Source: an uncultured Thiotrichaceae bacterium (lineage in GTDB: Bacteria; Pseudomonadota; Gammaproteobacteria; Thiotrichales; Thiotrichaceae). Taken from it: 36,000 bases of DNA. How positions within the stretch are numbered: position 1 is the stretch's first letter; each line of letters opens with the position of its first letter. Both the position numbers and the translations under genes were made by a program. Location of the stretch: the NCBI GenBank assembly GCA_902727985.1, contig CACVAY010000084.1, forward strand, positions 43,686 to 79,685, read 5' to 3'. The notes under the pieces were generated by a model. That model was not told the origin of the DNA. It did no database searches and was given only the letters and a program-made list of their open reading frames with translations. Positions 9,461 through 31,316 of this stretch are shown one piece after another.

Positions 9461-10513
9461 ATGGATATTACACAACTTCTTGCCTTCGGGGTTAAAAATA
9501 AAGCGTCTGATTTACACCTTTCAGCAGGCCTACCACCGATGATTCGTGTAGATGGTGATATGCGCCGCATTAATATGCCCGAACTTGAGCATAAAGATGT
9601 GCATGACATGGTGTATGACATCATGAATGATAATCAACGCAGAGACCTTGAGGAAAAATGGGAAACGGATTTTTCCTTTGAATTGCCAGGCGTTGCACGC
9701 TTTCGTGTCAATGCTTTCAATCAAAACCGTGGTGCAGCTGCGGTATTTCGTACCATCCCAAGTGAGATTCTTACTTTAGAAGCCATTAACGCTCCACCTA
9801 TTCTCAAAAAACTGTCCATGAAACCTCGCGGACTGGTCTTGGTAACTGGCCCAACCGGATCAGGTAAATCAACCACCCTCGCAGCGATGATTGATTATAA
9901 GAATGCTACTGAACATGGTCACATTCTAACGATAGAAGATCCGATTGAATTTGTGCATGAAAGCAAGAAAAGCCTAGTCAATCAACGTGAAGTGCATCGT
10001 GATACCCAAGGCTTTGATGCAGCTTTACGCTCAGCCTTGCGTGAGGATCCTGACACCATTCTAGTTGGCGAAATGCGTGATCTGGAAACCATTCGACTCG
10101 CTCTATCTGCTGCTGAAACGGGCCACCTGGTATTTGGAACACTCCATACCACCAGTGCCCCAAAAACTATTGACCGTATTGTGGACGTATTCCCTGCGGC
10201 AGAAAAAGAGATGGTTCGTTCAATGCTGTCAGAGTCTTTGCAGGCCGTTATCTCACAATCACTATTAAAGAAAGTCGGTGGCGGACGGGTTGCTGCCCAT
10301 GAAATCATGATCGGCACTCGCGCTATCCGCAGCATGATTCGTGAAAACAAAATCGCACAAATGAAATCCACACTGCAAACCAGCTCTGGTGAAGGCATGC
10401 AGACACTGGATCAATGCTTACAAGATCTGGTCACTATGGGCATGATCACGCGTCAGGATGCAATTGCTAAAGCTGACAACCCTGAAGCATTCCGTCAAGG
10501 TGCAATGGTATAG
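9461..10513 (+). CDS. pilT: Type IV pilus retraction ATPase PilT
   Basis: Cytoplasmic hexameric ATPase that drives pilus disassembly for twitching and DNA uptake. The 350 residues are the standard size. It shows the N-terminal PAS-like region with ASDLHLSAGLPP, Walker A GPTGSGKST near residue 133, Asp box IEDPIEF, Walker B ILVGEMRD, His box TGHLVFGTLHT, and the PilT-specific AIRNLIRE-type motif (AIRSMIRE), which its two downstream paralogues lack. The start follows the palindromic element by 21 bases and has only a weak purine-rich leader. It is the first of three tandem retraction-type ATPases. Confidence 0.97.
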   Translation: MDITQLLAFGVKNKASDLHLSAGLPPMIRVDGDMRRINMPELEHKDVHDMVYDIMNDNQRRDLEEKWETDFSFELPGVARFRVNAFNQNRGAAAVFRTIPSEILTLEAINAPPILKKLSMKPRGLVLVTGPTGSGKSTTLAAMIDYKNATEHGHILTIEDPIEFVHESKKSLVNQREVHRDTQGFDAALRSALREDPDTILVGEMRDLETIRLALSAAETGHLVFGTLHTTSAPKTIDRIVDVFPAAEKEMVRSMLSESLQAVISQSLLKKVGGGRVAAHEIMIGTRAIRSMIRENKIAQMKSTLQTSSGEGMQTLDQCLQDLVTMGMITRQDAIAKADNPEAFRQGAMV

Positions 10514-10523
10514 GATTTCAGAT

Positions 10524-11681
10524 ATGGATAAAGATAGTGCCATTCAATATGTACACAGCCTCATGCATGCGATGCTGGAGAAGGAAGGATCGGATTTATT
10601 TATTGCCGTTGATGCTCCCCCAAGCATTAAGCTGAATAATGAAGTGGTTCCTTTGTCCAATCAAAAACTAACGCCAGAACAAGCACGGGTTCTCGTTCGG
10701 TCAATTATGAATGATCGTCATTTGAAGGCGTACGAACGTGATTTGGAATGTAACTTTTCTATCAGTTTGCCTGAAGTTGCGCGCTTTCGTGTCAATGCCT
10801 TTACTCAGCAAGAACATGCGGGCATGGTACTGAGACATATCCCTACAGAAATTCCCCATATTGGAAAACTAGGCCTCCCTCCAGTGATGAAAGAACTCAC
10901 CACCACAAAGCGAGGCTTGATTATCATGGTGGGAGCAACAGGCTCAGGTAAATCAACCACATTGGCCTCTATGGTTGGCTACCGTAATCAAAATACTGCC
11001 AGTCATATTGTTACCATCGAAGACCCTATTGAGTTTATCCATAAAAATAATAAATCCATCATTACTCAACGTGAAATTGGTATTGACACCCTTGACTATG
11101 ATATCGCTCTGAAAAATACACTTCGGCAAGCACCCGATGTTATTCTTTTAGGTGAGGTTCGTGACCGGGAAACCATGGAATATGCCATTGCCTATGCGGA
11201 GACGGGTCACCTTTGCATGACCACCTTGCACGCTAATAATACCAACCAGGCGATTGACCGTATCATCAATTTTTTCCCTGAAGAGCGCCGCCAACAATTA
11301 CTGATGGATCTTTCTTTGAATTTGAAAGCCATTATTTCTCAGCGTTTAACACGACGTGCTGATGGCAAAGGCCGCGTCCCTGCTGTTGAAATATTAATTA
11401 ATTCACCCTTGATGAGTGATTTAATTCTCAATGGCAGCGTCGGAGAAATGAAAGAACTCATTGCCAAATCTAACGAGCAAGGCATGTGTACTTTCGACCA
11501 AACACTATTTCGCCTTATTGACTCTGGACTAATTACCTTCAAAGAAGGCTTACGACATGCAGATTCGATTAATGACCTCCGTCTACAGCTTAAGCTCAAT
11601 AGCAAGAACGCCTCTAAAGATGACGTTTTCCGCGGCACCGAAACAATGTCGATGGAAGATGTGCCCGAAACCTTTTTTTAA
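10524..11681 (+). CDS. pilU: PilT/PilU-family retraction ATPase, first PilU-type copy
   Basis: Paralogue of PilT of 385 residues; PilU acts as an accessory retraction motor that depends on PilT. It shows GSDLFIAVDAPPSIK near the N-terminus, Walker A GATGSGKST, IEDPIEFIHKNNKS, Walker B ILLGEVRD, His box TGHLCMTTLHA, and LSLNLKAIISQRL. The PilT AIRNLIRE motif is replaced by PLMSDLILNGSVGEMKEL, which is PilU-like. The start chosen is ATG 10524 rather than an earlier in-frame codon inside pilT, because AGGA overlapping the pilT stop lies eight bases upstream and the N-terminus then matches the family. It is ten bases from pilT, in the same operon. Confidence 0.93.
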   Translation: MDKDSAIQYVHSLMHAMLEKEGSDLFIAVDAPPSIKLNNEVVPLSNQKLTPEQARVLVRSIMNDRHLKAYERDLECNFSISLPEVARFRVNAFTQQEHAGMVLRHIPTEIPHIGKLGLPPVMKELTTTKRGLIIMVGATGSGKSTTLASMVGYRNQNTASHIVTIEDPIEFIHKNNKSIITQREIGIDTLDYDIALKNTLRQAPDVILLGEVRDRETMEYAIAYAETGHLCMTTLHANNTNQAIDRIINFFPEERRQQLLMDLSLNLKAIISQRLTRRADGKGRVPAVEILINSPLMSDLILNGSVGEMKELIAKSNEQGMCTFDQTLFRLIDSGLITFKEGLRHADSINDLRLQLKLNSKNASKDDVFRGTETMSMEDVPETFF

Positions 11682-11688
11682 ATAAGCT

Positions 11689-12870
11689 ATGAAAATAACC
11701 CCCTACCTTGAGGCGATGGTCAAACAAGACGCATCCGATCTTTACCTGACTACTGACGCACCTGCCTGTTTAAAAATCATGGGCAGCTTACATCCTCTGA
11801 CTAAAGAAACCATGCGCGAAGGCAACATCGCCGTACTTGCGCAAGATCTGTTAAGTGACGAAGAATGGAAGATCTTCCAAACAGAAAAAGAAATGAATAG
11901 AGGCCTTTCTATCAAAGATCTTGGTCGATTTCGCACGAATATTTATTTCCAACGCGGCGAAGTGTCAATGGTCATTCGTCATATTCGCTCTGAGGTTCAA
12001 AAACCTGAAGACTTGAATATGCCAGCGGTGTTGAAAGATTTAGTCATGGGAGGAGAAGGCTTGATTCTTTTTGTTGGCTCAACTGGCTCAGGCAAATCAA
12101 CATCGATGGCATCCTTGATCCAATACCGGAACTTAAATCATGCGGGCCATATACTAACCGTTGAGGATCCAATAGAATTTGCTTTCAAGCATGAAAAATC
12201 AATTATTGGACAACGCGAAGTTGGTTACGACACACTGAGCTATCAAAATGCCATGCGCGAAGCCATGCGCGAAGCACCTGATTTGATCATGATCGGGGAA
12301 ACACGCGATACTGAAACGATGGAAGCTGTCATGGGCTTTGCCGATACTGGCCACTTGGTTATCTCAACACTGCACGCCACGAATACCACTCAGGCATTAG
12401 AGCGTATTCTATACATGTATCCACCTGAGCAAAAAAGCCGTATCCTGATGGATCTATCTCTCAACCTGAAAGGCATTGTTGCGCAACGATTGGTTCCTGA
12501 TACAAAAGGCGGGGTTGTGCTTGCATCTGAAGTGCTGGTAAATACACCTTTCATTTCTGAAACTATTCGTAATGGAAACTTTCCCAATATTCAAGAACTG
12601 TTAGAAAAAGGCAAGAGCGATGGCATGCACACCTTTGATCAATCTTTGTTAAAACTCTATCGTCACGGCGCAATTACTCGTGAAAAGGCACTTGAGCATG
12701 CAACTTCACGTAATAACCTTGATTGGCAGCTAAACTTCGAAAACAAAAAAGAGAAGCAAAACAGTGAACCCTATACAAGCTACACGGGGGGGACAAAAGA
12801 AGAGCAGGCGAAAGAATCAGCGAAAACAACTCACGACATTTCCAGAGAGGCATTGCCTGAACTGAATTAA
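11689..12870 (+). CDS. PilT/PilU-family ATPase, second PilU-type copy
   Basis: Third retraction-type ATPase in the cluster, 393 residues, seven bases after pilU. It has all nucleotide motifs: ASDLYLTTDAPACLK, Walker A GSTGSGKST, VEDPIEFAFKHEKS, Walker B IMIGETRD, His box TGHLVISTLHA, LSLNLKGIVAQRL. It therefore looks catalytically intact. It is PilU-like in the region after the core (VNTPFISETIRNG). About 45 C-terminal residues are polar, Lys/Glu/Ser/Thr-rich and probably disordered, which differs from its neighbour. Role: a further accessory motor, perhaps specialised by conditions or pilin type. The ribosome site is weak, suggesting coupling to pilU. Confidence 0.9.
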   Translation: MKITPYLEAMVKQDASDLYLTTDAPACLKIMGSLHPLTKETMREGNIAVLAQDLLSDEEWKIFQTEKEMNRGLSIKDLGRFRTNIYFQRGEVSMVIRHIRSEVQKPEDLNMPAVLKDLVMGGEGLILFVGSTGSGKSTSMASLIQYRNLNHAGHILTVEDPIEFAFKHEKSIIGQREVGYDTLSYQNAMREAMREAPDLIMIGETRDTETMEAVMGFADTGHLVISTLHATNTTQALERILYMYPPEQKSRILMDLSLNLKGIVAQRLVPDTKGGVVLASEVLVNTPFISETIRNGNFPNIQELLEKGKSDGMHTFDQSLLKLYRHGAITREKALEHATSRNNLDWQLNFENKKEKQNSEPYTSYTGGTKEEQAKESAKTTHDISREALPELN

Positions 12871-13828: not shown

Positions 13829-15065
13829 ATATAGCTCCTTAGAAAAAAGTAGTTTTAGAACCTGTGTAAACCTTTGCCGCTTTAGGAGTCATGAGAAATA
13901 AAATTAGACATATTCATCCACCACGTTTTGCGTGCAAAGATCTTTAAAATAAGTCGAGCGACAGAAATCTATCACCAGAAAATCTGATGACACCAAACCC
14001 ATTCGCTGTAATAGATAGGCAAATCTTCTTTATGTGCAATCGCTGAGAACTGCACCGAATTGGGACTGTGATAACAGAATAGGCATCAAATCAGACCAGC
14101 ATTCTACCTAAAAATGACAGAGATGCCATCAAAAGGAATAAATACCCCTTATAACAGCCTATCACTTTCAACCGCTCAATCACTGAAATCAAGAGACTTT
14201 GCTTAAAGAGTTTTGGTTTTTTCTCTCTTCACGTAAAAACACAAAGTGAGTAAATATTTCCCTACGCAGACCTGAGCAATAACCCCTTATTTAACCCTCA
14301 AAAAAACAACATTCGGCAAACCAACACATATTTTTTAGAACGAACCACGAATAGGATTAGCAGCGTAAATTCATCAACTTAAACTAAACACCAAAACCTA
14401 ACAGCAACATTTACCAGACAATCGGTACCCTTTCACAGACTAAGAAACAATTCTATGAATTTAATAAAATAAAAGACACTTATCCTACTTTTCCACAGAT
14501 TCTGTGGATAACTCTGTGTACAACTCTTTTAATAACGCCTCTCATCCGCAGTAGATCAAGGCGTTTATCACTTTCCGCCAAAATAGCGGGAAAACAATAT
14601 AAATATAATAATCAAACAGTTACGTATCTCAAGAAAAATTTAACGCATCCCAAAAGAAATTTTTGTCAACATTTTTTTACAAAAAATAGAGATGTGTATA
14701 AAGTCAAAACAGCTCGATAAATGAGCAACCACAACATCTTGTGTTTTACACTTAACTTAAACCAATATGAATTACCAATGAACAACGACTTAAGTACTAA
14801 TGGATATATTCTTAATCAACTATCAATCATAACCATTCAGACTGTCTTGAGCTATGCTTCTTCCCTGCGAAAAAAAATATTTTTCTATTTAATATCAAAA
14901 AGATAAAAGATTATACCTCATCCACACCAGATACACATTGGGCGACTAAATCGACATAAAAAGATAAACAGGGTGAACTACAAGCCAAAGCTTTAGATTT
15001 TCTCAATCCCATATCCACTGATTTCTGATAAACTGTGCGCTCAATTTTTATTCCTAACTCCCCCT
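13829..15065. other. 1.2-kb gene-free AT-rich region between prkB and rimO
   Basis: No open frame here has family features or a ribosome site. One 61-codon frame (14721-14906) is compositionally unlike a protein. The stretch must contain the divergent promoters of prkB (left end) and rimO (right end), but I could not pick either with confidence. Its middle holds the DnaA-box-like cluster described separately, plus two imperfect hairpins (AACGCCT/AGGCGTT, 14534-14566; TTTCCGC/GCGGGAAA, about 14573-14594) and a very AT-rich tract at 14594-14617. Confidence 0.6.
14489..14701. other. Cluster of DnaA-box-like 9-mers (candidate origin or DnaA-binding region)
   Basis: Two perfect TTATNCACA boxes occur on the minus strand: TTATCCACA at 14503-14511 and TTATACACA at 14693-14701. 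One-mismatch boxes lie at 14489-14497 (TTTTCCACA, plus) and 14515-14523 (TTGTACACA, minus), with another at 14918-14926. The first two form a perfect TCCACAGA-T-TCTGTGGA palindrome. The AT-rich tract 14594-14617 lies between. The core ACAGAGTTATCCACAG resembles E. coli oriC box R4. dnaA and the other usual origin neighbours are absent from the window. Confidence 0.4.
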
Positions 15066-20698: not shown

Positions 20699-21452
20699 GC
20701 AACAGAGCAATATTCCATAAGTTAGGAATATATTCAGCGGCAACTCGCATTGATTTATCGTCCTTATTCCTCTTACTTTTCTCTACCAAATATGCGTAAA
20801 AGGTAGAGAATGATAATTCATGACCGTCATTCTCCATGGCAATCAACATCCGCTTTACATTGCCAGCCCCCCAATTAAACGCCACCAAAGTAAACATCCA
20901 CGATTCGGCCTCACTAAAACCTGCAACATGCTGGAAATAAAACTGATAGCGATGTATGTGAATGAAAGCGGCTTCAGTACTTAAGTGCTCATGTGTTTGG
21001 ATTTCTCGTACAGAAGAAATAATTAAAAGCGGTGATGCCTCTGGTAACCCCCGAATTTCCTGAATCACTTCAGGAATCATCTGCCAATAACCGTAATCAT
21101 GCTCAGGGTTTCCCACATCAGCTCGCCAACCTGATTCCAAATAGGCAATCAAAAAGACAAATGATGGCATATCATCGCGTATTTCTTTTTCCAAATAGGG
21201 GTAACAACGCTTATGTGCTTTCACATATTTATTCGTGCTCTTACCATTCTTCCATTGAATATTATTTTTGACCCGTTTACTGACTTTATTAAACATTTCC
21301 AGGCCCTCATCATAAAGACTCTCGTCAATGATCGAAGCCAAGGTATTATGATGAAGCTCTGAATAGTCGTGCAGCTTCTTTGCACCATAGGCAAACTCTG
21401 AGCTGAGTAAGTAAATCCAACCCAGTAAACATCCTGTAACTATTTTTTTCAT
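20685..21452 (-). CDS. SLT-family lytic transglycosylase
   Basis: Exported peptidoglycan lyase of 255 residues, predicted periplasmic. Signal peptide MKKIVTGCLLGWIYLLSSEFAYG; the Cys at residue 8 is inside the hydrophobic core, so it is not a lipobox. Residues 95-240 match goose-lysozyme-like SLT domains: catalytic Glu106 in IAYLESGW, then DYGYWQMIPEV in place of the usual GLMQ(M/I)MP, and LVAFNWGAGNV in place of AYNAGPG. MltD-like but lacking LysM repeats. An in-frame GTG at 21476 is possible, but ATG 21452 fits the signal peptide. It is convergent with kdsB and overlaps it by 14 bases. Confidence 0.85.
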   Translation of the reverse strand: MKKIVTGCLLGWIYLLSSEFAYGAKKLHDYSELHHNTLASIIDESLYDEGLEMFNKVSKRVKNNIQWKNGKSTNKYVKAHKRCYPYLEKEIRDDMPSFVFLIAYLESGWRADVGNPEHDYGYWQMIPEVIQEIRGLPEASPLLIISSVREIQTHEHLSTEAAFIHIHRYQFYFQHVAGFSEAESWMFTLVAFNWGAGNVKRMLIAMENDGHELSFSTFYAYLVEKSKRNKDDKSMRVAAEYIPNLWNIALLLNRR

Positions 21453-21614
21453 ACATTTTTTTTGATACTCAATCACAACACTACTTACCCCACTCTTAAA
21501 TATAAATGAGTACGTTCAACGCAGCTATTGCAACACGCTAGCAAACTGAGTAGTTGAGGCAGAGAATATGATAATCCCTTATACTGCACCACCCAATATT
21601 AGCGTCGATTAGCC

Positions 21615-22811
21615 ATGTCAGTTACCCACATCATTCTAAAAAAAGGCCGAGACAAATCCATTCGGGCAAAACACCCATGGATTTTCTCGGGAGCAATTCA
21701 GCATATCAAAGGAGAACCTGCTGCGGGAGATACGGTTGAAGTCTACTCACAGAATGGGGATATTTTAGGCTTAGGCGCTTGGTCACCAGAATCGCAAATT
21801 CAAGTTCGTATGTGGAAGATGGGCAAAGGTAAGATTGACCGCGAGTTCTTCAAACAACGCATCGAGTCCGCTCTCCAGCAACGTGCCACTATTGGTATCA
21901 CCCACTTGAATACCGCCTTTCGCATAATCAATGCGGAATCTGATGGCATTCCCGGCATGGTTGTCGATAAGATGGGGGACTGGATAATCATGCAATGCCT
22001 ATCAACAGGCGCAAACCATTGGAAGAATGACATTGCCGAAATCTTGATGGAATTAACAGGCTGCCGTGGCGTTTATGAACGTTCTGACGTTGCCATTCGT
22101 AAAAAAGAGGGCTTGCAAGAAACTAAAGGCTGTTTAAAAGGTGAAGAACCTCCTGCTCATATCGACATTCTTGAAGAAGGTCGTCATTACCGTGTCGATG
22201 TGGTTAATGGGCATAAGACTGGGTTCTATCTCGATCAACGAGACAATCGTTCTCTAGTCGGACACTACGCGAAAGAGAAAACGGTACTTAACTGTTTTTC
22301 ATACACTGGCGGGTTCGCCATTGCTGCAGCTTTAGGTAAAGCCAAGCATATCACCAGCATTGACGCGTCTTCACACGCACTCGAACACGCCCAACAAGCC
22401 TATGAACTCAACAAACTTGCTAGTAAACAAACAAAGAATATTTGTGGAGACGTCTTCAAGCTCCTTCGCGAATATGATCATGCAGGTAAGAGGTTCGACA
22501 TGATTATTCTTGATCCGCCGAAGTTTGCTGAAAACCGTAGCCAAATCAAAAAAGCGGCTCGTGGTTACAAGGATATTAACCGTCTTGGCTTTAAACTCCT
22601 AAACCCGGGAGGACTACTATTCACCTTCTCCTGCTCTGGACTTATTGACGCAAACCTTTTCCAAAAAATCGTTTCAGATGCAGCATTGGATGCAGGCTGT
22701 GATGGGCAAATCATTCATAAACTGGCACAAGCTAGTGACCATCCTACCCGTTTAGCATTCCCAGAAGGCTTCTACCTGAAAGGTCTCGTCTGCCAAAAAA
22801 TAATCTCATAA
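21615..22811 (+). CDS. rlmI: Class I SAM-dependent rRNA large-subunit methyltransferase RlmI
   Basis: Methylates a cytosine of 23S rRNA (m5C1962 in E. coli). 398 residues. The N-terminal PUA-like domain (about residues 1-75) shows HPWIFSGAIQHIKGEP and GDILGLGAWSPESQIQVRMW. A linker domain and a Rossmann methyltransferase follow, with FYLDQRDNR, NCFSYTGGFAIAAALG (SAM loop), IILDPPKFAENRSQI (motif IV) and FSCSGLID (motif with catalytic-type Cys). It is divergent from the transglycosylase across 162 bases. A TATACT hexamer at about 21579 may be its -10 box, without a good -35. Confidence 0.93.
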   Translation: MSVTHIILKKGRDKSIRAKHPWIFSGAIQHIKGEPAAGDTVEVYSQNGDILGLGAWSPESQIQVRMWKMGKGKIDREFFKQRIESALQQRATIGITHLNTAFRIINAESDGIPGMVVDKMGDWIIMQCLSTGANHWKNDIAEILMELTGCRGVYERSDVAIRKKEGLQETKGCLKGEEPPAHIDILEEGRHYRVDVVNGHKTGFYLDQRDNRSLVGHYAKEKTVLNCFSYTGGFAIAAALGKAKHITSIDASSHALEHAQQAYELNKLASKQTKNICGDVFKLLREYDHAGKRFDMIILDPPKFAENRSQIKKAARGYKDINRLGFKLLNPGGLLFTFSCSGLIDANLFQKIVSDAALDAGCDGQIIHKLAQASDHPTRLAFPEGFYLKGLVCQKIIS

Positions 22812-22949
22812 GTAATAATGGTAATCCAATCTATTTCCAATGATAATACACACGTACACAGCATAGGGGGCTTTGGTCTATCAATAAGACTCAATGTTAA
22901 GTCCTCCTTGCCCCCCTACTCTGGCTATTTAGAAATCATAGGAATCCAC
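22812..22949 (+). other. Leader region of the TlpA-like gene with a GGGGG/CCCCC stem
   Basis: TAGGGGGC (from 22864) and GCCCCCCTA (to about 22918) can pair with one bulged C and close a loop of about 38 bases upstream of the thioredoxin start. No T tract follows. The in-frame open stretch here shows no protein-family features and is taken as untranslated. Confidence 0.35.
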
Positions 22950-23405
22950 ATGTTTAAAACATCCATTATTGCTTTTTTCTTAGTATTTACAACGATGTTG
23001 AGTAACGCCATAGCTGAGGACGATGCCAAAGCAATTGATCTCACGCCTTACAAGGGAAAAGTTGTCTTAGTCGATTTCTGGGCATCTTGGTGCCCTCCCT
23101 GTCGTGAATCCTTCCCATGGCTAAATAAAACACATAGCGCTAAATCTGGAAGCGACCTTGTCATCCTCGGAGTGAATGTTGATGAAAACAAAGAAGATGC
23201 TGAGCAGTTTCTTAAAGAAAACAAAGCGCACTTCAAAATTATCTTTGACACTAAAGGACAGCATGCCACTTATTACAAACTTCCCGGTATGCCCACCACC
23301 TTGATTTTTGATCGTGATGGTAAATTAGTGCATCAACATGCTGGCTTCAAAACTAGTGAAATCAACGAATACGAAGCCACCATTGATAAGATCCTTGCTC
23401 AGTAA
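22950..23405 (+). CDS. TlpA-like periplasmic thioredoxin
   Basis: Thiol-disulfide oxidoreductase of 151 residues. Signal peptide MFKTSIIAFFLVFTTMLSNAIA, cleaved before EDDAK. It shows the thioredoxin strand VVLVDFWASWCPPCRESFPWL with active-site Cys48-Pro-Pro-Cys51, VNVDENKEDAEQFL typical of TlpA/ResA types, and the cis-proline loop LPGMPTTLIFD. The ATG at 22950 is chosen because AGGAA lies eight bases upstream and the signal peptide begins there, although the frame stays open for 44 codons further up. The partner is unknown. A thioredoxin of this type is often, from memory, linked to DUF4266-DUF3570-apbE, which here is 5 kb away. Confidence 0.88.
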   Translation: MFKTSIIAFFLVFTTMLSNAIAEDDAKAIDLTPYKGKVVLVDFWASWCPPCRESFPWLNKTHSAKSGSDLVILGVNVDENKEDAEQFLKENKAHFKIIFDTKGQHATYYKLPGMPTTLIFDRDGKLVHQHAGFKTSEINEYEATIDKILAQ

Positions 23406-23458
23406 TCATTTTTTATTTTATTATTGAGGCATCTTTAGCTTTCAAGGAAGCCCACCTT

Positions 23459-24088
23459 TTAGTCACTATAGCAAGCGCCAGTGCCGCCTAGTCCGCAATA
23501 GCCATTCGGGTTCTTGGCAAGATATTGTTGATGATATTCTTCTGCATAATAGAACTCAGGAGCAGGGATAATTTCTGTCGTAATCTCAGGGTAGCCTTTT
23601 TCAAGGAGGGTTTTCTGAAAAACGTCTTTGGAGGTTTCTGCTTGCTTTTGTTGCTCATCAGAATACGTGTAGATACCTGAGCGGTACTGTGTGCCACTAT
23701 CATTCCCTTGGCGCATACCTTGCGTGGGATTGTGTGCTTCCCAGAAGCATTTTAGCAACTCTTTGTAGCTAATTTTTTTCGGATCATAAGCAACCAACAC
23801 AACTTCATTATGGGCTGTTTTTCCTGAGCAAACTTCTTGATAAGTTGGATTCTTGGTAAAGCCTGCGCTGTAACCTACGGCTGTTGAGTAGACGCCAGTG
23901 AGTTGCCAGAATTTGCGTTCTGCTCCCCAAAAACAGCCCATCCCAAACAGGGCGGTTTGAATGCCTTCTGGAAAGGGAGGACTAATGGTTACATTATGGA
24001 TGAAATGAATGCCAGATATAGGCAATGCTTTATCTCTTCCGGGTAATGCGGTGTCAGCTGTTGGCATGGCGCTTTTATCAGTGAACAT
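23459..24088 (-). CDS. msrA: Peptide-methionine (S)-S-oxide reductase
   Basis: Repairs oxidised methionine with thioredoxin as reductant. The 209 residues belong to the long MsrA form with an N-terminal extension ([13 protein letters not shown]). Catalytic Cys52 is in [50 protein letters not shown] and [21 protein letters not shown] follow, with C198 and C206 as candidate resolving cysteines. No signal peptide, so cytoplasmic. AAAGGAC eight bases before the ATG supports this start, which overlaps the znuA end by 11 bases, so it is probably co-expressed with the zinc-binding protein. Confidence 0.95.
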
Positions 24089-25046
24089 GAGATTGTCCTT
24101 TACAAGATTTCAATTGCTCAAAAGTATAAGCTAATAGCCCAGCATAACCTTGGTGATTGTCTGGTAACTGCGCACCTTTTGGGTCAAGTATCACAATTTT
24201 GGTTTTATTGCCTTCAACCAAAGCATTCAAAAGTGCTTGATTGCTCTGTGGTGAAGCAACCAGGCAAACAATGTTATCTTCCAGCAAATGACCACGTAGC
24301 TCTTTCACCTGTTTGGCGCTGGGTGGAATACCTTCTTGAATATTGAGAGTACGTGGTGCAGTAACACCAAAGTAGTCTTGGAAGTATTGCCAGGCATCAT
24401 GGAAAACAGCATAACGTAATGTGGTATCGCCAAGTGTTTTAATGATGTGCTCTTCTGTTTGTTTGATATTGTCTTGCAAACGTTGCGCATTCTTGGTGTA
24501 GGCTTCCGCATGCGCTGCATCGAGTATTGAAAGCTCGTGGGCAATCTGCGCAATCAGAAGTCGAGCATTTTCTGGATTAAACCAGAGATGTGAATCAAGT
24601 TTAGTAGCATCCATTGTCTCCGTTTCATGAGCATCTTTATGAACGTAATTATGAGTATGACGCATGCGTGCTGGTAGCGCATGGATGCTCTTCAGTTCCA
24701 TCCAGGTAAGTACTTTTTTCCCTTCCAATGTTTTATTTAAAAAACGTTCCATATTTGGTGAAACACGAATCACCAGATCCGCTTTTTTGATGGTGCGTAG
24801 AGCGCTTGGTTTCAGAGTGTAATGATGAATATTTTGTGTTGCAGGGATGAGGAGTTTTGCTGAGGCGTGTTCGCCTGCAATTTCTTCTGCGATTAAGTGG
24901 ATGGGCAGAATCGTGGAGAGGATTTCTGGTTGTTTCTCAGCAAATGCTTGTGTGCCGATTGTAGACAGACAGAGCCATAAAAATAAGCGTACAATGTGGC
25001 TCTTTTTTAGCGTAAACAAGAATAATGACGGAGCAACTGGTTTCAT
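24078..25046 (-). CDS. znuA: Zinc ABC transporter substrate-binding protein
   Basis: Periplasmic zinc-capture lipid-free binding protein of cluster A-I. 322 residues. Signal region [20 protein letters not shown]. Likely zinc ligands are H74/H75 ([10 protein letters not shown]), H153 ([11 protein letters not shown]) and H216 (VFHDAWQYF), plus a His-rich loop near 130-140 ([12 protein letters not shown]) that is a ZnuA hallmark. The ATG at 25046 would make its first 22 bases overlap the divergent znuC start. A TTG at 25019 is the only in-frame alternative that removes most of the overlap, and neither has a good ribosome site. Zinc (Zur) regulation is expected, but I see no convincing Zur box. 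Confidence 0.92.
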
Positions 25047-25804
25047 TAACGAATATCGCCTTTTCGATTGGTGAACGCGTCATTCTGCATGATATTAGCC
25101 TAGAATTACAGCGTGGAAAGATTCTGACCATTATTGGGCCAAATGGTGCCGGAAAATCGACATTATTACGTATCTTATTGGGTTTAGAATCTAATTATAC
25201 GGGTAAAGTTGGACTAGCTGATGGTATAACTTTAGGTTACGTGCCTCAGAAAGTGGCAGTTGATCCACAGATTCCCTTGTCCGTTGAGCGTTTTTTGCTT
25301 TTGGCGTGTTCTACGATACCAGAGAGTTTTGCTACGACCTTGGAGCAAGTCGGTGTTGCCCATTTATTGCCACAAAAGGTAACAAGTTTATCGGGTGGTG
25401 AGTTTCAACGCGTCTTGCTTGCTCGTGCTTTATTACGTGAACCGGATTTGCTGGTTTTGGATGAACCTGCACAGGGTGTGGATATGCAGGGGCAGGCAAG
25501 TCTCTACGGCTTGCTGGATGAGTTGGTTGATGAGCATGGCTTTGGTGTTTTGATGGTGTCACATGATTTGCATGTGGTAATGGCAAATACCGATGACGTG
25601 CTTTGCCTGAATCAACATATATGCTGTAGTGGACATCCTGAGGCAGTAAGCCGTCATCCGGAATACATGCGCCTGTTCGGCGATCAGTCGACCGAAAACA
25701 TCGGTATCTATACTCACCATCACGATCATGAGCATGATTTACAAGGCAATGTGTGTCCACATGGGCATGAGTGTTCAAAGTTTGGAGATGAAAAACATGG
25801 ATGA
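25025..25804 (+). CDS. znuC: Zinc ABC transporter ATP-binding protein
   Basis: Cytoplasmic ATPase of the zinc importer. 259 residues: Walker A GPNGAGKST (38-46), Q-loop VPQKVAVD, signature LSGGE (122-126), Walker B LLVLDEP (142-148), and the H-loop in MVSHDLHVV. The last 35 residues form a His/Cys-rich tail (HHHDHEHD and CPHGHEC) that resembles a metal-binding extension. It is divergent from znuA with overlapping 5' ends, so the promoter must lie inside znuA coding DNA. It overlaps znuB by eight bases. Confidence 0.95.
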   Translation: MTEQLVSLTNIAFSIGERVILHDISLELQRGKILTIIGPNGAGKSTLLRILLGLESNYTGKVGLADGITLGYVPQKVAVDPQIPLSVERFLLLACSTIPESFATTLEQVGVAHLLPQKVTSLSGGEFQRVLLARALLREPDLLVLDEPAQGVDMQGQASLYGLLDELVDEHGFGVLMVSHDLHVVMANTDDVLCLNQHICCSGHPEAVSRHPEYMRLFGDQSTENIGIYTHHHDHEHDLQGNVCPHGHECSKFGDEKHG

Positions 25805-26579
25805 TTTTCTTCTGCGCGCTTTAACAGCTGGCATGATTGTTGCCATTCTGTGCGGGAGTTTGGGTGTATTTATTCTCTGGCGGCGTATGGCATATTTTGG
25901 CGATACGGTCTCACACGCTTCTATCCTTGGGGTTTCTCTTGGCATATTGATGGGTGTCAGCGTGAGCTTTGGGGTCATTGCAACGAGTATTGCGGTTGCG
26001 CTGGCGATGCTGTTGTTACGTCGCGATCAACGTTTCAGCAATGACACGGTGCTCGGTGTATTGGCGCATAGTGCATTGTCATTGGGGTTGGTGTTGATGG
26101 TTTTTGTCGAAGGACAACAAATAGATCTGAATGCCTGGTTGTTCGGTGATATTTTGGCCGTGACGAAAATAGACTTGATGATTCTTGCAAGTGTTGGCAG
26201 TATTCTACTGATTGTTCTAAGATTGATCTGGAAGCCGCTTCTCTCGATGTCAGTGAGTGAAGATTTGGCGAGAGTAGAAGGGGTGAATATCGCAGGCATA
26301 GGATTGACTTACACGTTGCTGGTTGCAATCACGATTGCCGTGGGAATCAAGGTTATCGGTGCGTTGTTGATTTCTTCGATGTTGATTATTCCTGCTGCCG
26401 CAGCCCGAAATCTGGCGAAGAGTCCGGAAGCTATGGTTCTCTACTCCATGTTGATTGGGGTAATTGCTGTGGTATCAGGCTTAAGCAGTTCCTATTTTTG
26501 GGATACACCCGCAGGTCCATCCATTGTCGTTGCTGCAACCTGTGTATTTATCGTGTTGCAAATGCTTCCCAAACGCTAA
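25797..26579 (+). CDS. znuB: Zinc ABC transporter permease
   Basis: Inner-membrane permease of the zinc importer, 260 residues with about eight hydrophobic segments. MDDFLLRALTAGMIVAILCGSLGVFILWRRMAYFGDTVSHASILG is the typical ABC-3 family opening. Other landmarks are LNAWLFGDILAVT and KVIGALLISSMLIIPAAAARNLAKSP near the C-terminal third. ATG 25797 is preferred over earlier in-frame codons inside znuC because GGAG is eleven bases upstream and the protein then begins at the family's normal N-terminus. The overlap with znuC (ATGGATGA) implies translational coupling. Confidence 0.95.
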   Translation: MDDFLLRALTAGMIVAILCGSLGVFILWRRMAYFGDTVSHASILGVSLGILMGVSVSFGVIATSIAVALAMLLLRRDQRFSNDTVLGVLAHSALSLGLVLMVFVEGQQIDLNAWLFGDILAVTKIDLMILASVGSILLIVLRLIWKPLLSMSVSEDLARVEGVNIAGIGLTYTLLVAITIAVGIKVIGALLISSMLIIPAAAARNLAKSPEAMVLYSMLIGVIAVVSGLSSSYFWDTPAGPSIVVAATCVFIVLQMLPKR

Positions 26580-26591
26580 GGAAAAACACTC

Positions 26592-27152
26592 ATGCAGAAT
26601 GTTGAACTCCCGTTAAAATCATTGTTTTTGATGCGCCATGCAAAATCTTCATGGTCGAGCGATGCTGCTGATGATTTTTCACGTCCACTCAATGAACGTG
26701 GAATGCGGGATGCCAAATGGGTCGCTGAGCTTTTTAAAAAACGGGATTGGCGACCTGAACGGATTGTCTATTCAGCTGCGAAACGAAGCACAGTAACCGC
26801 TGAATGCTTAGGGCAAACCTTTACTCAGGCGAAAGAGGTTATATCGAATGAAGGGCTTTATTTTGCACGGATGGAGCAACTTTTATCGGTGGCGACAGAA
26901 ACCCCTGAATCAGTGTCGCAATTATTGTTGATTGGTCATAACCCTGGCATGGAGCAACTGTTGATACATCTTTGTCCTGCATCTGAATACCAAGACAATG
27001 GTAAATTGCTCACAACGGCTAATGTCGTACATATTGGCTTAACGGGAACATGGTCTGAGCTAAGTCGTGACAAAGGACGGTGTCTTGAACATGTTCGTCC
27101 AAAAAGTATTGGCTACTTAAGCCAGGAACGCTACAGTACAGATCCCGTATAG
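26592..27152 (+). CDS. SixA-type phosphohistidine phosphatase
   Basis: Histidine-phosphatase superfamily protein of 186 residues. FLMRHAKSSW at residues 12-21 holds the catalytic RHG-equivalent (R15, H16). DDFSRPLNERGMRDA and LLIGHNPGMEQLL (second catalytic His) are the SixA-clade features. In E. coli SixA removes phosphate from histidine phosphocarrier domains; the target here is not evident. No signal peptide, so cytoplasmic. It starts 12 bases after znuB and may share its transcript. A small AGCTGG/CCAGCT hairpin follows at 27165-27181. Confidence 0.88.
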   Translation: MQNVELPLKSLFLMRHAKSSWSSDAADDFSRPLNERGMRDAKWVAELFKKRDWRPERIVYSAAKRSTVTAECLGQTFTQAKEVISNEGLYFARMEQLLSVATETPESVSQLLLIGHNPGMEQLLIHLCPASEYQDNGKLLTTANVVHIGLTGTWSELSRDKGRCLEHVRPKSIGYLSQERYSTDPV

Positions 27153-27164
27153 CACCTGAAAAAA

Positions 27165-27181
27165 AGCTGGAGACTCCAGCT
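27165..27181 (+). terminator. Weak hairpin after the sixA-like gene
   Basis: AGCTGG-AGACT-CCAGCT is a 6-bp stem preceded by A6 and followed by GGGCTTTC rather than a clean T run. It may be a weak terminator or only a pause site. Confidence 0.35.
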
Positions 27182-27235
27182 GGGCTTTCAACATAAGAAC
27201 AATATTCATTACAAATAAGAGAAAAGAGTAATCAC

Positions 27236-27811
27236 ATGCAATTATTTGGATCGTTATACGATAAGGTGATGGGCTGGTCTAAACATCGTCATGCACCGAA
27301 ATATCTTGCCGGGGTCAGTTTTGCAGAAGCATCATTTTTCCCAATTCCAGTTGCGGTTATGTTGCTGCCCATGGCGTTGGCAAAACCAGCCAAAGCATGG
27401 AACCTGGCTTTTATTACCCTGGTTGCGTCTGTATTAGGTGGTATTGCGGGTTATCTAATTGGTTGGGGGGCTTATGAGTTGGTTGAGCCATTATTTAGTC
27501 ACAAAGCCGATAAGCTTGAAGTAGCCAAGGACTGGTTTGCAGAATATGGTGTCTGGATTGTATTAATGGCTGGCTTTTCACCTGTTCCCTACAAAATTTT
27601 CACCATAACAGCCGGATTGCTATCAATGGCATTCATTCCTTTTGTTATTGCTTCGATTATTGGACGTGCATCACAATTTTATCTGATTGCATTCCTGGCC
27701 TGGAAATTTGGTCCAAGTATGGAGCCCAAAATTCGTCAATATATTGAGTGGTTGGGATGGCTAGTTGTGATTTTAATCAGCGCTTTACTCCTATGGATGA
27801 ATTTGCGTTAG
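27236..27811 (+). CDS. YqaA-family (DedA-like) membrane protein
   Basis: Inner-membrane protein of 191 residues belonging to the short DedA/VTT-related YqaA group. FAEASFFPIPVAVMLLPMALAKP forms the first re-entrant segment and GVWIVLMAGFSPVPYKIFTITAGLL the second, each with the Glu/Pro pattern of this superfamily. A C-terminal helix is IEWLGWLVVILISALLLWM. DedA proteins are linked to undecaprenyl-phosphate or phospholipid flipping; no direct evidence of substrate here. It is followed by a good terminator. Confidence 0.85.
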   Translation: MQLFGSLYDKVMGWSKHRHAPKYLAGVSFAEASFFPIPVAVMLLPMALAKPAKAWNLAFITLVASVLGGIAGYLIGWGAYELVEPLFSHKADKLEVAKDWFAEYGVWIVLMAGFSPVPYKIFTITAGLLSMAFIPFVIASIIGRASQFYLIAFLAWKFGPSMEPKIRQYIEWLGWLVVILISALLLWMNLR

Positions 27812-27835
27812 GGCGTGATGGTTTCTGGTACTGAG

Positions 27836-27872
27836 TCTTTCAATGCTGATTGAAAGAGTGCTAAGTTTTTAT
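27836..27872 (+). terminator. Terminator of the yqaA-like gene
   Basis: TCTTTCAAT-GCTG-ATTGAAAGA is a perfect 9-bp stem with a tetraloop, followed eight bases later by TTTTT. It lies between the convergent yqaA-like and apbE genes. Confidence 0.7.
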
Positions 27873-27897
27873 TGATGATGAGCGAACCGGTTTCTCT

Positions 27898-28800
27898 CTA
27901 CTGTTGAATCCAGAATGGTCGGCCTTGCGCTTGTAAGAAATTTTCAGCCAGACTGCCTTTTAACATCGCGAGTGTTGAAAGTATGCCTGCCTCTGTGCAG
28001 CTGGGTGCGGCGATGGTGACTGTGCTAGGAGAGTCTATAACCGGATAGCCAGTGAGTGCATTGATAATATGTCCGTAACGTTTGCCCTCATGGATAATTG
28101 CCTTATAGACGTCACCACTGGTAGCGATAGCGCCTGTTGTTAAAGGAATGGTTTTCCATATCTTACCACCACCTTCTTTGGTCTCAATGCCAATTTCCCA
28201 AGGGCGTTGATCCGCTCGTGGGCCTTTAGCAACAATATCTCCACCTAAATTAATCATAACGCTGTTACCGAGTGATTGATGCGCAATTGCCGCACAACGA
28301 TCTGCGGCATATTCTTTGCCAATTCCGCCGAAGTCTATTTGCATGCCTACTGGTAGGGTGATTTGTTGCTCAGTAATCTCAATGTGTTGCCAACCCACGT
28401 GTTTAAGTTGTTCATTAATTTGCGTTTGCGTGGGAATGTGTTGCTGGTCGAAATTCCAAATCTTTCGAAAGACACCACTGCTAATATCAAACATACCCCC
28501 ACTTTCTTGCCATAAGACATTGGCGAGTGTCAGCAGATGATAGGTTTCCGAATCGATATTCGTTATTTTTCCTTGGGCATTATTAATAATGCTGAGGGGA
28601 GAGCTGGGTAAATATCGCGAGTACTTCTGTTCAATTCGCCATGCTTCTTCGGCGATTTCATGCATGGCAGAGCGTGCTGTTGTGCTATCTGTGTTGTTGT
28701 CGACAAAAATTGCACAAGGGTTTGCCATGGCTCGGAAATGACCAATGTCGAGAGAGCCTTGTGATTCGAAACGTATCTGACCGAGGTGTTCGTTTGGCAT
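27898..28800 (-). CDS. ApbE-family FAD:protein FMN transferase, atypical and without signal peptide
   Basis: Enzymes of this family attach FMN from FAD to a threonine of target redox proteins. 300 residues. Family motifs present: DFGGIGKEYAADR (156-168), INLGGDI (184-190), WEIGIE, AIATSGDVYK, and YGHIINALTGYPV with H244. The C-terminal metal motif, normally ADA-L-S/A-T, reads E270-A-G-I-L-S-T276: the aspartate is Gly272, although Thr276 remains and a Glu sits two residues earlier. There is no export signal or lipobox, so it should act in the cytoplasm, unlike most ApbE proteins. It is last in the DUF4266-DUF3570-apbE cassette, 63 bases after DUF3570. No FMN-binding target protein is seen in the window. 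Confidence 0.9.
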   Translation of the reverse strand: MPNEHLGQIRFESQGSLDIGHFRAMANPCAIFVDNNTDSTTARSAMHEIAEEAWRIEQKYSRYLPSSPLSIINNAQGKITNIDSETYHLLTLANVLWQESGGMFDISSGVFRKIWNFDQQHIPTQTQINEQLKHVGWQHIEITEQQITLPVGMQIDFGGIGKEYAADRCAAIAHQSLGNSVMINLGGDIVAKGPRADQRPWEIGIETKEGGGKIWKTIPLTTGAIATSGDVYKAIIHEGKRYGHIINALTGYPVIDSPSTVTIAAPSCTEAGILSTLAMLKGSLAENFLQAQGRPFWIQQ

Positions 28801-28813
28801 GAGTCCCGGGGTT

Positions 28814-28856
28814 ACTTCCTACCTTTCATTTGATGAGAGAGAGAGAGATAGGAAGT
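28814..28856. repeat. (GA)7 simple repeat inside an inverted repeat, DUF3570-apbE spacer
   Basis: ACTTCCTA (28814-28821) and TAGGAAGT (28849-28856) are perfect 8-bp inverted copies. The 27 bases between them end in seven GA units (28835-28848). The structure fills most of the 63-base spacer and lies just upstream of the apbE start, which otherwise has no well-placed ribosome site. Slippage would change loop length only. Confidence 0.6.
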
Positions 28857-28863
28857 ATGTAGA

Positions 28864-30093
28864 TTAAAACTTTACGCCTGCTGAGAGCATTAGCGCATCG
28901 AAACCTGGGTTTGCATCTAAGCTTGCTTGCCCTGGCGTGAGTTCAACGTTAGTAGGATCTTGAGTGTAGTATTCCCCCGTTATACGCCAATCTCTATTTT
29001 TGTTGCCTTTCCAGCGGTAGGTTGCACCTAAAGTGTATGCAGCAAATTCTGCCAAACGATAGTCTGCTGAGGCATTGGCTGGTAAGGCTGCGGTAGCATC
29101 TAGCTGTGCCGTATAAAAATCTGCGGCGCCTTGATGATAGTAGCGGATATGCGGTTCAATGCTTTTCTTGTTGCCAAGATCAATACGGTATTTCGTATCC
29201 AATGTGACGGAGTCAATGCCCCAATCATCGGTGTGCAATCGGGCGGAACCTGTCACAACATGTTTATTGGAAACAGTGTGTTTAAGTGCTGCATAGAGAT
29301 TATGCCCAGTACGTGAGTCAGGGCGGGATTCATGCAGATTCTCAATAATTGTGCCAGAAGCATCAACACGGCTTACCCACTTATAAGGGTCATTAAGATA
29401 GCCATCAGCAACACTGACACTATAATTAAGCTGAAGAAGAGAGTTTTTTGAGAGAACTTGAGTGAGCCCAATCATTCCATCAAGGGTATTTTTGTCTTCG
29501 CTGCTTGCACCTTTTGTCGCACTGCCATCAGAGAAGGGAATCGGTGCATTGCCGACTGCTTCTACCGAGTCAGCTGCATAAGCTAAGCCCACTGACAGGG
29601 TTGTGTTCTTATCATTCAAGGTTTTTGAGAGACCACCTGATACGCCAAAGTGTAGGTAGTCATATTCTTTGGAAAAGGAAATACCTACATTGCTTCGAGA
29701 GTCTGCATTGAGTGGTTGATCCCAGTTAGCTGAAAGCGATACGCGAGTATCCTTAAACGTATCATCTAACGGTAATTCACCCGCTGGATGAGTGATAGTG
29801 CCATTTCCAGATGGAGAGGTAATGGTCTGGGCTGTAGTCGATGGTGCGACGCCGTTCGGTGATGCACCTGTTAGCGTATCTATGCCAGCATTAATGGTGA
29901 GTTTTTTGTCACTGTCTGTGGTTCGAGTGCCCTGATACTTGAGGCTGCCATCCTGCACGCGATCATCTGTTTCACCGTAGTACAATACTGCAGCTTCATG
30001 ATCCCAATCTGCTGCAGATACGGATGCTGCATTGGTTGCTGCCATGAGCCCTGCGGCGGCTAATGCCAGGCGATTATTCTGTGTTAGTTGCAT
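28864..30093 (-). CDS. DUF3570 outer-membrane beta-barrel protein
   Basis: 409 residues, predicted outer-membrane barrel of unknown function. Signal peptide ends ...ATNAASVSA before ADWDHEAAVLYYGETDDRVQ. The rest is long alternating strands (LTINAGIDTLTGASPNGVAPS, VSLSANWDQPL, VGISFSKEYDYLHFGVSGGLSK, ATYRWKG) and terminates in LMLSAGVKF, the C-terminal aromatic strand recognised by BAM. The ATG at 30093 lies within the stop region of the DUF4266 gene (10-base overlap), with GGAGG six bases upstream, so the two are translationally coupled. It is recognised from memory as DUF3570; the pairing with DUF4266 and ApbE supports that. Confidence 0.88.
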   Translation of the reverse strand: MQLTQNNRLALAAAGLMAATNAASVSAADWDHEAAVLYYGETDDRVQDGSLKYQGTRTTDSDKKLTINAGIDTLTGASPNGVAPSTTAQTITSPSGNGTITHPAGELPLDDTFKDTRVSLSANWDQPLNADSRSNVGISFSKEYDYLHFGVSGGLSKTLNDKNTTLSVGLAYAADSVEAVGNAPIPFSDGSATKGASSEDKNTLDGMIGLTQVLSKNSLLQLNYSVSVADGYLNDPYKWVSRVDASGTIIENLHESRPDSRTGHNLYAALKHTVSNKHVVTGSARLHTDDWGIDSVTLDTKYRIDLGNKKSIEPHIRYYHQGAADFYTAQLDATAALPANASADYRLAEFAAYTLGATYRWKGNKNRDWRITGEYYTQDPTNVELTPGQASLDANPGFDALMLSAGVKF

Positions 30094-30311
30094 CCGCAAC
30101 CTCCAGCACCAAATGAGCGACCACCACTGGTGGCTTCTTTTGAGAAATAGACATGATCGTCAGTGGCATCAATCAGACTGTCACTGCCAAAGGTCATCGC
30201 GGGTTTGGCAAGGTTGCCTCGTTCCCAAGGTTTTATATTCGTTGCACTACAGCTGATCATGCTCAAAGAAAGCATCACTAATATGATGGCGTTTAATAGT
30301 TGTTTAGGCAT
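30084..30311 (-). CDS. DUF4266 small lipoprotein with C-terminal GCGCN
   Basis: 75-residue predicted lipoprotein. Signal sequence MPKQLLNAIILVMLSLSMIS with lipobox MISC, lipid on Cys21. The mature part is only 55 residues: PWERG at 28-32, a polar middle (DSLIDATDDHVYFSKEATSGGRS), and a closing glycine-rich GAGGCGCN with Cys72 and Cys74. A C-x-C at the extreme end could bind metal or be chemically modified, but this is inference. The start is chosen for the lipobox; a longer in-frame extension upstream has no signal-like character. It is the first gene of the cassette and overlaps DUF3570. Ribosome site poor. Confidence 0.85.
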   Translation of the reverse strand: MPKQLLNAIILVMLSLSMISCSATNIKPWERGNLAKPAMTFGSDSLIDATDDHVYFSKEATSGGRSFGAGGCGCN

Positions 30312-30365
30312 TTTTAATTTATCTTGAATTTTAGTCACAAGTGCAACACATTGAAAAAGATGGGT

Positions 30366-30383
30366 CAGTGAGTACATTCACTG
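30366..30383. promoter_or_regulatory. Operator-like inverted repeat upstream of the DUF4266 cassette
   Basis: CAGTGA-GTACAT-TCACTG has perfect 6-bp arms around a GTAC-containing centre. It lies about 55 bases before the DUF4266 start. On the minus strand TTGTGT and TGTACT, spaced 17 bases apart, could be a promoter with the repeat over its -10 box. This is a tentative call. Confidence 0.35.
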
Positions 30384-30412
30384 GTCGACAAAAACACAAT
30401 GTGAGTCACCTT

Positions 30413-30590
30413 ATGACAAAGCACTATACTCATCTGACCCTGGAAGAAGGATACCAGATCGGGTCTGATAAAAAAGCTGGATTCTCTCCAACAACTATTC
30501 CACGGAATTTGATTAACTGTGCCCAATCTTGTCTGATATGCCAGTCTGCGACCTTGAATCGTGATAAGGGATTCCATAGTGTAGAGCAAG
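30413..30590 (+). pseudogene. Decayed N-terminal fragment of an IS30-family transposase
   Basis: The frame from ATG 30413 reads MTKHYTHLTLEEGYQIGS, then DKKAGFSPTTIPRNL, which matches the IS30 transposase N-terminus (YTHLTLEERYQI, then KAGxSQxxIAxxL) closely. Further on, CQSATLNRDKG is a plausible remnant of RHKSTISRExxRN. The frame ends at 30631 without any catalytic DDE domain, and no full inverted repeats were seen. This is a dead insertion remnant in the gap between the cassette and the amidase gene. The rest of that gap (30312-30683) holds only promoter-region DNA. Confidence 0.6.
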
Positions 30591-30683
30591 TAAGTTTGTT
30601 AACCATCTACACTTTTTTACTCAACAAATGACAGTATTAAGGCATACTAAGCAACACAAATGTTTATAACATTGGAGCGACTT

Positions 30684-31316
30684 ATGCGTTTATGGCTTGT
30701 TATTTTTCTTGGTTTATTGGTGTCTGCCTGTTCTCACCCCCCTACAGCGAATCAATCTAGCACTCAAGTGGCGCGTGCCGATGTTTTTATTCAAGCAGGG
30801 CATGAGGGACGCAGCAGTGGGAAAATGGGGTCAACATCCCAGTTTGGACGTGAAATTGACTGGACACCTGTTGTCGCTGATGCGGCCACGCATTATTTGC
30901 GGCAAGCCGGCTTTTCTGTGATTCGCGCTGATGCAAACTGGAAACAAAAAACCGATACAGATTTAGCATTGTTTATTCATTTTGATGGTAGTGCTAATCC
31001 ATGCGCAACAGGTGCTTCGATTGGCTATGATGATCCCTCAGATCGTCCAGCAGCCAATGCATGGAAACGCCTGTATTCACAATATTTCCGTTATCGCTGG
31101 CAACAAGATAACTTCACGAAGAACCTCAGCCAGTACTATATGTTTAAACACACCCGTACTCGTGATGCGGAACTGGTGTTAGAACTTGGTGCGATTGGAT
31201 GCCCTGAGCAAGCGTTATGGTTGCGGCCTCGTTTGCCACAACTAGGACAACTTGTTGCTCATTTTGCTGCGGAGCGTATGGGCTATGGTAACCGTATACC
31301 ACGACCTCAGATGTAA
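30684..31316 (+). CDS. Lipoprotein with a divergent N-acetylmuramoyl-L-alanine amidase (Amidase_3-like) domain
   Basis: 210 residues. Signal and lipobox MRLWLVIFLGLLVSAC, lipid on Cys16. The mature protein follows the Amidase_3 zinc pattern: H40 in FIQAGHEGR, E57 in FGREIDW, H99 in LALFIHFDGSAN, and the catalytic-type E167 in LVLELGAIGCP. ADANWK replaces the usual tR-strand. Peptidoglycan amidase activity is inferred from these four residues; identity to known amidases is low by eye, so another zinc hydrolase is possible. ATG 30684 is preferred because GGAG lies eight bases upstream. It is divergent from the DUF4266 cassette. Confidence 0.7.
   Translation: MRLWLVIFLGLLVSACSHPPTANQSSTQVARADVFIQAGHEGRSSGKMGSTSQFGREIDWTPVVADAATHYLRQAGFSVIRADANWKQKTDTDLALFIHFDGSANPCATGASIGYDDPSDRPAANAWKRLYSQYFRYRWQQDNFTKNLSQYYMFKHTRTRDAELVLELGAIGCPEQALWLRPRLPQLGQLVAHFAAERMGYGNRIPRPQM

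Follow-up and report, generated by a model that had tools for sequence, protein, structure and literature searches.

The intergenic region between prkB and rimO in the 36,000-nucleotide stretch of DNA analysed here (hereafter the window, G000:C84:43686-79685, from an uncultured Thiotrichaceae bacterium) harbors an element at positions 14489-14701 (+) that is probably a DARS of the DARS2-like type, i.e. a predicted IHF-dependent DnaA-reactivating site. The positions of its three-box core, of a putative IHF site (+107 from box II) and of a fourth DnaA box (+190 from box II) are conserved at the level of sequence across the family and the class. An earlier note on this DNA had proposed either a displaced oriC or a DnaA-titrating or regulatory site; the latter alternative is supported by our analysis and could be sharpened to a DARS-type site by the core geometry, the spacing conserved in family and class, and the match to a profile of class elements.

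Architecture of the prkB-rimO element

The gap is flanked on the left by a divergently oriented prkB-type phosphoribulokinase gene (NF011997; 12941-13828, -) and on the right by rimO (TIGR01125; 15066-16388, +). With a length of 1237 bp, an AT content of 65.3% and no open reading frame of at least 80 amino acids, it agrees with the previous description as a gene-free, AT-rich region. At 9461-12870 the window carries three consecutive genes for PilT/PilU-like ATPases, named by eye from their translations.

All boxes reported earlier, two perfect matches to TTATNCACA and three with one mismatch, were recovered. Box I (TTTTCCACA, one mismatch, 14489-14497, +) stands head-to-head with the perfect box II (TTATCCACA, 14503-14511, -), 14 bp away, and has the position and orientation of box I in Escherichia coli DARS1 and DARS2, while box III (TTGTACACA, one mismatch, 14515-14523, -) follows box II in tandem 12 bp further on. 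A perfect IHF consensus (AATCAAACAGTTA, 14610-14622, +) is located at +107 from box II, within the class peak of +105 to +108, and the fourth, distal box (TTATACACA, perfect, 14693-14701, -) at +190, within the class peak of +186 to +193. The AT-rich tract noted amid the boxes was likewise found, with 68.6% AT between boxes III and IV, and the remaining one-mismatch box (14918-14926, +) lies outside the conserved element. At the +72 place, where many class elements have a Fis consensus, the window features an imperfect dyad, TTTCCGC-7-GCGGGAA (14572-14592), which is not itself a Fis consensus; none was detected there or elsewhere in 14401-15038. The host genome encodes a Fis homologue (43% identity over residues 21-97) as well as IHF-alpha and Hda.

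The chance rate assumed previously, one perfect box per approximately 33 kb, turned out to be too low, since simulations yielded 2.07 perfect boxes per 36 kb; two in the window are therefore the background number, which is what a chance cluster of DnaA boxes would lead one to expect. Two perfect boxes within 440 bp occurred in 12 of 300 simulations, while two perfect boxes together with at least five boxes in total within the same distance occurred in none of the 300. The unusual aspect is hence the clustering of the boxes and not the number of perfect ones. The core geometry, which the earlier note had missed, is a stronger point than the clustering: the arrangement of boxes I and II 5 bp apart with box III 3 bp beyond box II was found once in the window, with two mismatches, and in none of 100 shuffles. 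A chance cluster retains a vanishingly small probability in view of these simulations and shuffles, and the conservation of the spacing across family and class, described below, already refutes it.

Position relative to the replication origin

Two observations initially made a displaced oriC attractive: conservation of the cluster upstream of rimO is limited to the family, and no perfect boxes were present within 1.5 kb upstream of dnaA, the true cluster being located just past that limit. DnaA boxes, an IHF site and an AT-rich tract, all found in the window, would also be compatible with an origin. The GC-skew check that had been suggested for this reading, however, placed the switch of the window's genome at C110:54,527 near dnaA and not at the cluster. 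The skew on contig C110 changes from negative to positive between about 50 and 55 kb, with a raw minimum at 54,527 and a fourfold-site minimum at 48,384, while C84 lacks a lasting switch, its skew being negative on both sides of the cluster except for one positive stretch at 65-75 kb. On the basis of the skew on C84 and C110, the displaced oriC was rejected for the window's genome. The element is, as expected of a DARS, intergenic and not the origin, and it does not lie at the GC-skew switch, where an oriC would be expected.

A gap of 415 bp at C110:54552-54966 (L210), located 2 kb from dnaA, contains four perfect DnaA boxes and several imperfect ones close to the consensus, together with an IHF consensus, a cluster denser than that in the window. 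This gap is likely the true oriC of the genome, with other genes separating it from dnaA. It resembles the window element in having DnaA boxes and an IHF site, but differs in its box layout, in its location at the GC-skew switch and in matching the class profile introduced below over no more than 26 bp (E = 0.38). As a side observation, the 10 kb of positive GC skew on the otherwise negative contig C84 (window positions ~21300-31300) span msrA-like and znuABC-like genes, whose names were assigned partly by eye, and possibly represent an inversion or an acquired segment.

Relatives gave a similar or an ambiguous picture. In G008 the skew switch lies beside dnaA at C1:966-967 kb, with none around rimO on C4, which speaks against an origin at rimO. 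In G016, dnaA and rimO are 39 kb apart with four perfect boxes at each; the raw minimum (3,902,827) lies at dnaA, whereas the fourfold-site minimum (3,938,029) is situated ~3 kb from the rimO cluster and would favor an origin there. As the two minima point to different loci, the skew of G016 is ambiguous, and the skew samples of G018 were too flat to be informative. Taken together with the distinct oriC candidate on C110, we consider a displaced chromosomal origin in the prkB-rimO gap highly improbable.

Conservation in the family and across the class

The family relatives are named Thiotrichaceae, Leucothrix, Cocleimonas and Thiothrix. Regions upstream of rimO were compared in 22 family genomes (G handles) and in 15 chosen named loci; the two sets overlap through shared assemblies, and the counts out of 22 refer to the G handles only. 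The core was found upstream of rimO in 13 of the 22 genomes. In all 13 the distal box is perfect, on the same strand and located at +188 to +201, and in nine an IHF site matching the consensus perfectly lies at +106 or +107. Nine of the 22 genomes, among them G019 with a contig that ends early, have no core upstream of rimO, which counts against the DARS assignment; all nine show a core match elsewhere in the genome. In G016, another of the nine, the boxes are present upstream of rimO, but box I is displaced by one base. Among the named loci, only L083-L106 and L134 have a core upstream of rimO, with none in L107-L133 or L135-L162. When the search covered the entire genome, the core pattern was detected in 57 of 63 family genomes and the box-IHF-box arrangement in 34 of 63, with 0/63 for the reversed-pattern control of the core and 0/63 for the control of the arrangement.

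A promoter region through which DnaA regulates prkB and/or rimO, without any role in the DnaA cycle, would account for a site between divergent genes, and the prkB-rimO adjacency is indeed conserved in much of the family. The distance of the element to rimO, however, varies while its internal spacing is fixed, and other families carry the element away from rimO: of 20 class loci inspected with 3 kb of context, eight adjoin priA (two of them confirmed as PriA) and none adjoins rimO or prkB. We therefore regard the promoter reading as improbable.

Several family genomes contain further copies. G006, G009, G018 and G020 have a core at priA as well, and the order in G020 is rimO - core - prkB - core - priA; the two DARS cores flanking prkB in this genome (L427:3607-8928) suggest a possible origin of the rimO copy from the priA copy. 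In genus g7 two tandem copies of the rimO module are separated by about 400 bp (L010, L013 and L018, from G022, G016 and G011, respectively), and each copy has a pair of perfect boxes spaced by about 190 bp. Some family genomes (G008, G014, G018, G011 and G022) have four to six DARS cores, compared with one in the window's genome at an equal cutoff, and in L271 (G023) DARS-like cores overlap on both strands, 12 bp apart.

Beyond the family, the core was present in 116 of 143 evenly drawn gammaproteobacterial genomes (reversed control 1/143). One hundred class cores outside the family were collected from these matches, 20 as loci and 80 in list order, passing over later entries as well as certain repeat or overlapping copies; the flanks of these 80 were unseen at selection, and neither IHF, Fis nor the distal box was a selection criterion. 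The cores are not fully independent, as some genomes contribute two or more. Between -100 and +380 of box II, 31 perfect IHF (+) sites were counted around the 100 cores, 29 of which fall at +105 to +108, along with 67 perfect same-strand boxes. A distal perfect box at +186 to +201 follows 60 of the 100 cores; 18 cores have both this box and the IHF site, and 71 at least one of the two. Allowing one mismatch, and leaving out three cores of incomplete length, an IHF site at +104 to +109 was found for 67 of 97 cores (control window mean 1.0) and a distal box at +186 to +193 for 71 of 97 (control 0.47). A perfect Fis consensus at +72 is present in 36 of the same 97, and 45 of all 52 perfect Fis matches lie at +66 to +80.

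A profile built from 98 class elements, two being omitted for incomplete length, matched the window at 14488-14703 with E = 2.2e-12, and reversed sequences gave no match. The same profile recovered E. coli DARS1 (E = 1e-6) and DARS2 (E = 0.003), while its match to datA was confined to 21 bp (E = 0.075). When restricted to the non-core part, the profile found four other family elements but missed that of the window, which counts against the DARS assignment; consequently, for the outer half of the window element the argument depends on exactly where the IHF site and the fourth box are placed.

Relation to E. coli DARS1, DARS2 and datA

DARS were reportedly defined in a paper by Fujimitsu from 2009. 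Their mechanism has been worked out chiefly in E. coli, in which DARS2 is considered to determine when initiation occurs. Excerpts of PMC5742627, PMC10380432 and PMC8682772 describe as their common feature a three-box core with opposed boxes I and II; the core spacing is equal in DARS1 and DARS2, box I being opposite to II and III (PMC5742627, in part), and the head-to-head pair is functionally essential (PMC10380432, in part). In NC_000913.3, both E. coli elements place box II (-) at +14 and box III (-) at +26 relative to box I (+). The core in the window has the identical geometry, with box I opposite to boxes II and III and gaps of 5 and 3 bp. The resemblance to the surroundings of E. coli oriC R4 claimed earlier is better taken as resemblance to the DARS1 core.

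DARS1 (bioD-uvrB intergenic region, core NC_000913.3:813107-813141) shares the core geometry and was the top E. coli scorer against the class profile, with an alignment extending beyond the core. It differs in lacking an IHF site within one mismatch, the best being at +107 with two mismatches, and in having just a one-mismatch box at +209. DARS2 (rppH-mutH intergenic region, core NC_000913.3:2969135-2969169) likewise has identical core offsets, and in both DARS2 and the window the distances from box II are about 80-107 bp to IHF and about 190-197 bp to a perfect DnaA box. Particular to DARS2 are IHF sites at +79 (-) and +95 (+), 3 bp apart, a Fis site at +131 past IHF, and a distal box at +197 on the opposite strand, whereas the window has its perfect IHF consensus at the set distance of +107, no Fis consensus and a distal box on the strand of box II, and the typical class element consists of the core, Fis at +72 before IHF, IHF at +107 and the box at +190. 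For DARS2, a second core candidate at L252:1452 with six mismatches was dropped in favor of 1136, which has the adjacent IHF sites 3 bp apart that are described in excerpts of PMC4245941. According to the same excerpts, moving the DARS2 IHF site by 5 or 10 bp revealed that distance and bend direction matter, a result that fits the rigid spacing seen in the window and the class elements. They also state that E. coli DARS2 requires Fis (PMC4245941), so the absence from the window of Fis sites corresponding to FBS2-3, with a dyad in the usual place, counts against a DARS and makes the element DARS2-like only, not DARS2 proper.

The main rival is a datA-like element, as box-IHF-box is also the plan of datA. 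In this reading the IHF bend would fall between boxes II/III on one side and the distal box on the other, and the DnaA complex would hydrolyse ATP or merely be withdrawn from oriC by titration. In reverse complement, datA reads box 4 (+), box 3 (-), IHF (+) at +93 and box 2 (-) at +162; the order and orientation, with boxes 2 and 3 flanking one IHF site, are those of the window, where the corresponding spacings are 107 and 190, and this shared arrangement counts against the DARS assignment. Minimal datA, as given in the available part of PMC10380432, comprises 187 bp with one IHF site. In datA, on the other hand, the head-to-head pair is separated by 3 bp and lacks a third box, whereas the window and DARS have a 5-bp gap with box III 3 bp on, and the spacings of datA are shorter. 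The class profile fits DARS1 and DARS2 better than datA, for which similarity beyond single boxes was not found apart from the 21-bp stretch, and many class elements have a Fis site, an ingredient of DARS2. A datA-like function thus appears unlikely, though it deserves consideration.

If the element acts as a DARS, as we favor, E. coli work suggests that ADP-DnaA on boxes I and II would interact head to head via the AAA+ domains and that box III would stabilise the ADP-DnaA complex. The IHF bend may then let DnaA on the distal box or, in the window, a dyad-bound protein, and in many relatives possibly also Fis, contact the core, upon which ADP would leave and the freed DnaA would reload ATP ahead of the next initiation at the oriC located elsewhere.

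DARS-like sequences are known in other proteobacteria, according to excerpts of PMC10380432 and PMC6090056, which cite Fujimitsu 2009. Our literature searches returned no description of the class layout nor of a DARS at rimO or priA, which is weak evidence of absence, and the novelty of the class layout is uncertain. A wider reading, plausible but held with slightly less than even confidence, is that most Gammaproteobacteria possess a standard DARS of ~215 bp (core I-II-III, Fis at +72, IHF at +107, fourth box at +190), often located by priA and ancestral, from which E. coli DARS1, without an IHF consensus, and DARS2, with the order of IHF and Fis swapped, would be derived. The Thiotrichaceae-like lineage would have a copy at prkB-rimO, whose Fis site would have given way to another dyad in the species of the window, suggesting a different partner protein. 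If this holds, a rigid element with another order of Fis and IHF in many families would reveal what in the E. coli mechanism is of general validity, its pattern could find DARS in most gammaproteobacterial genomes, and clusters of DnaA boxes away from dnaA would often be DARS, not origins.
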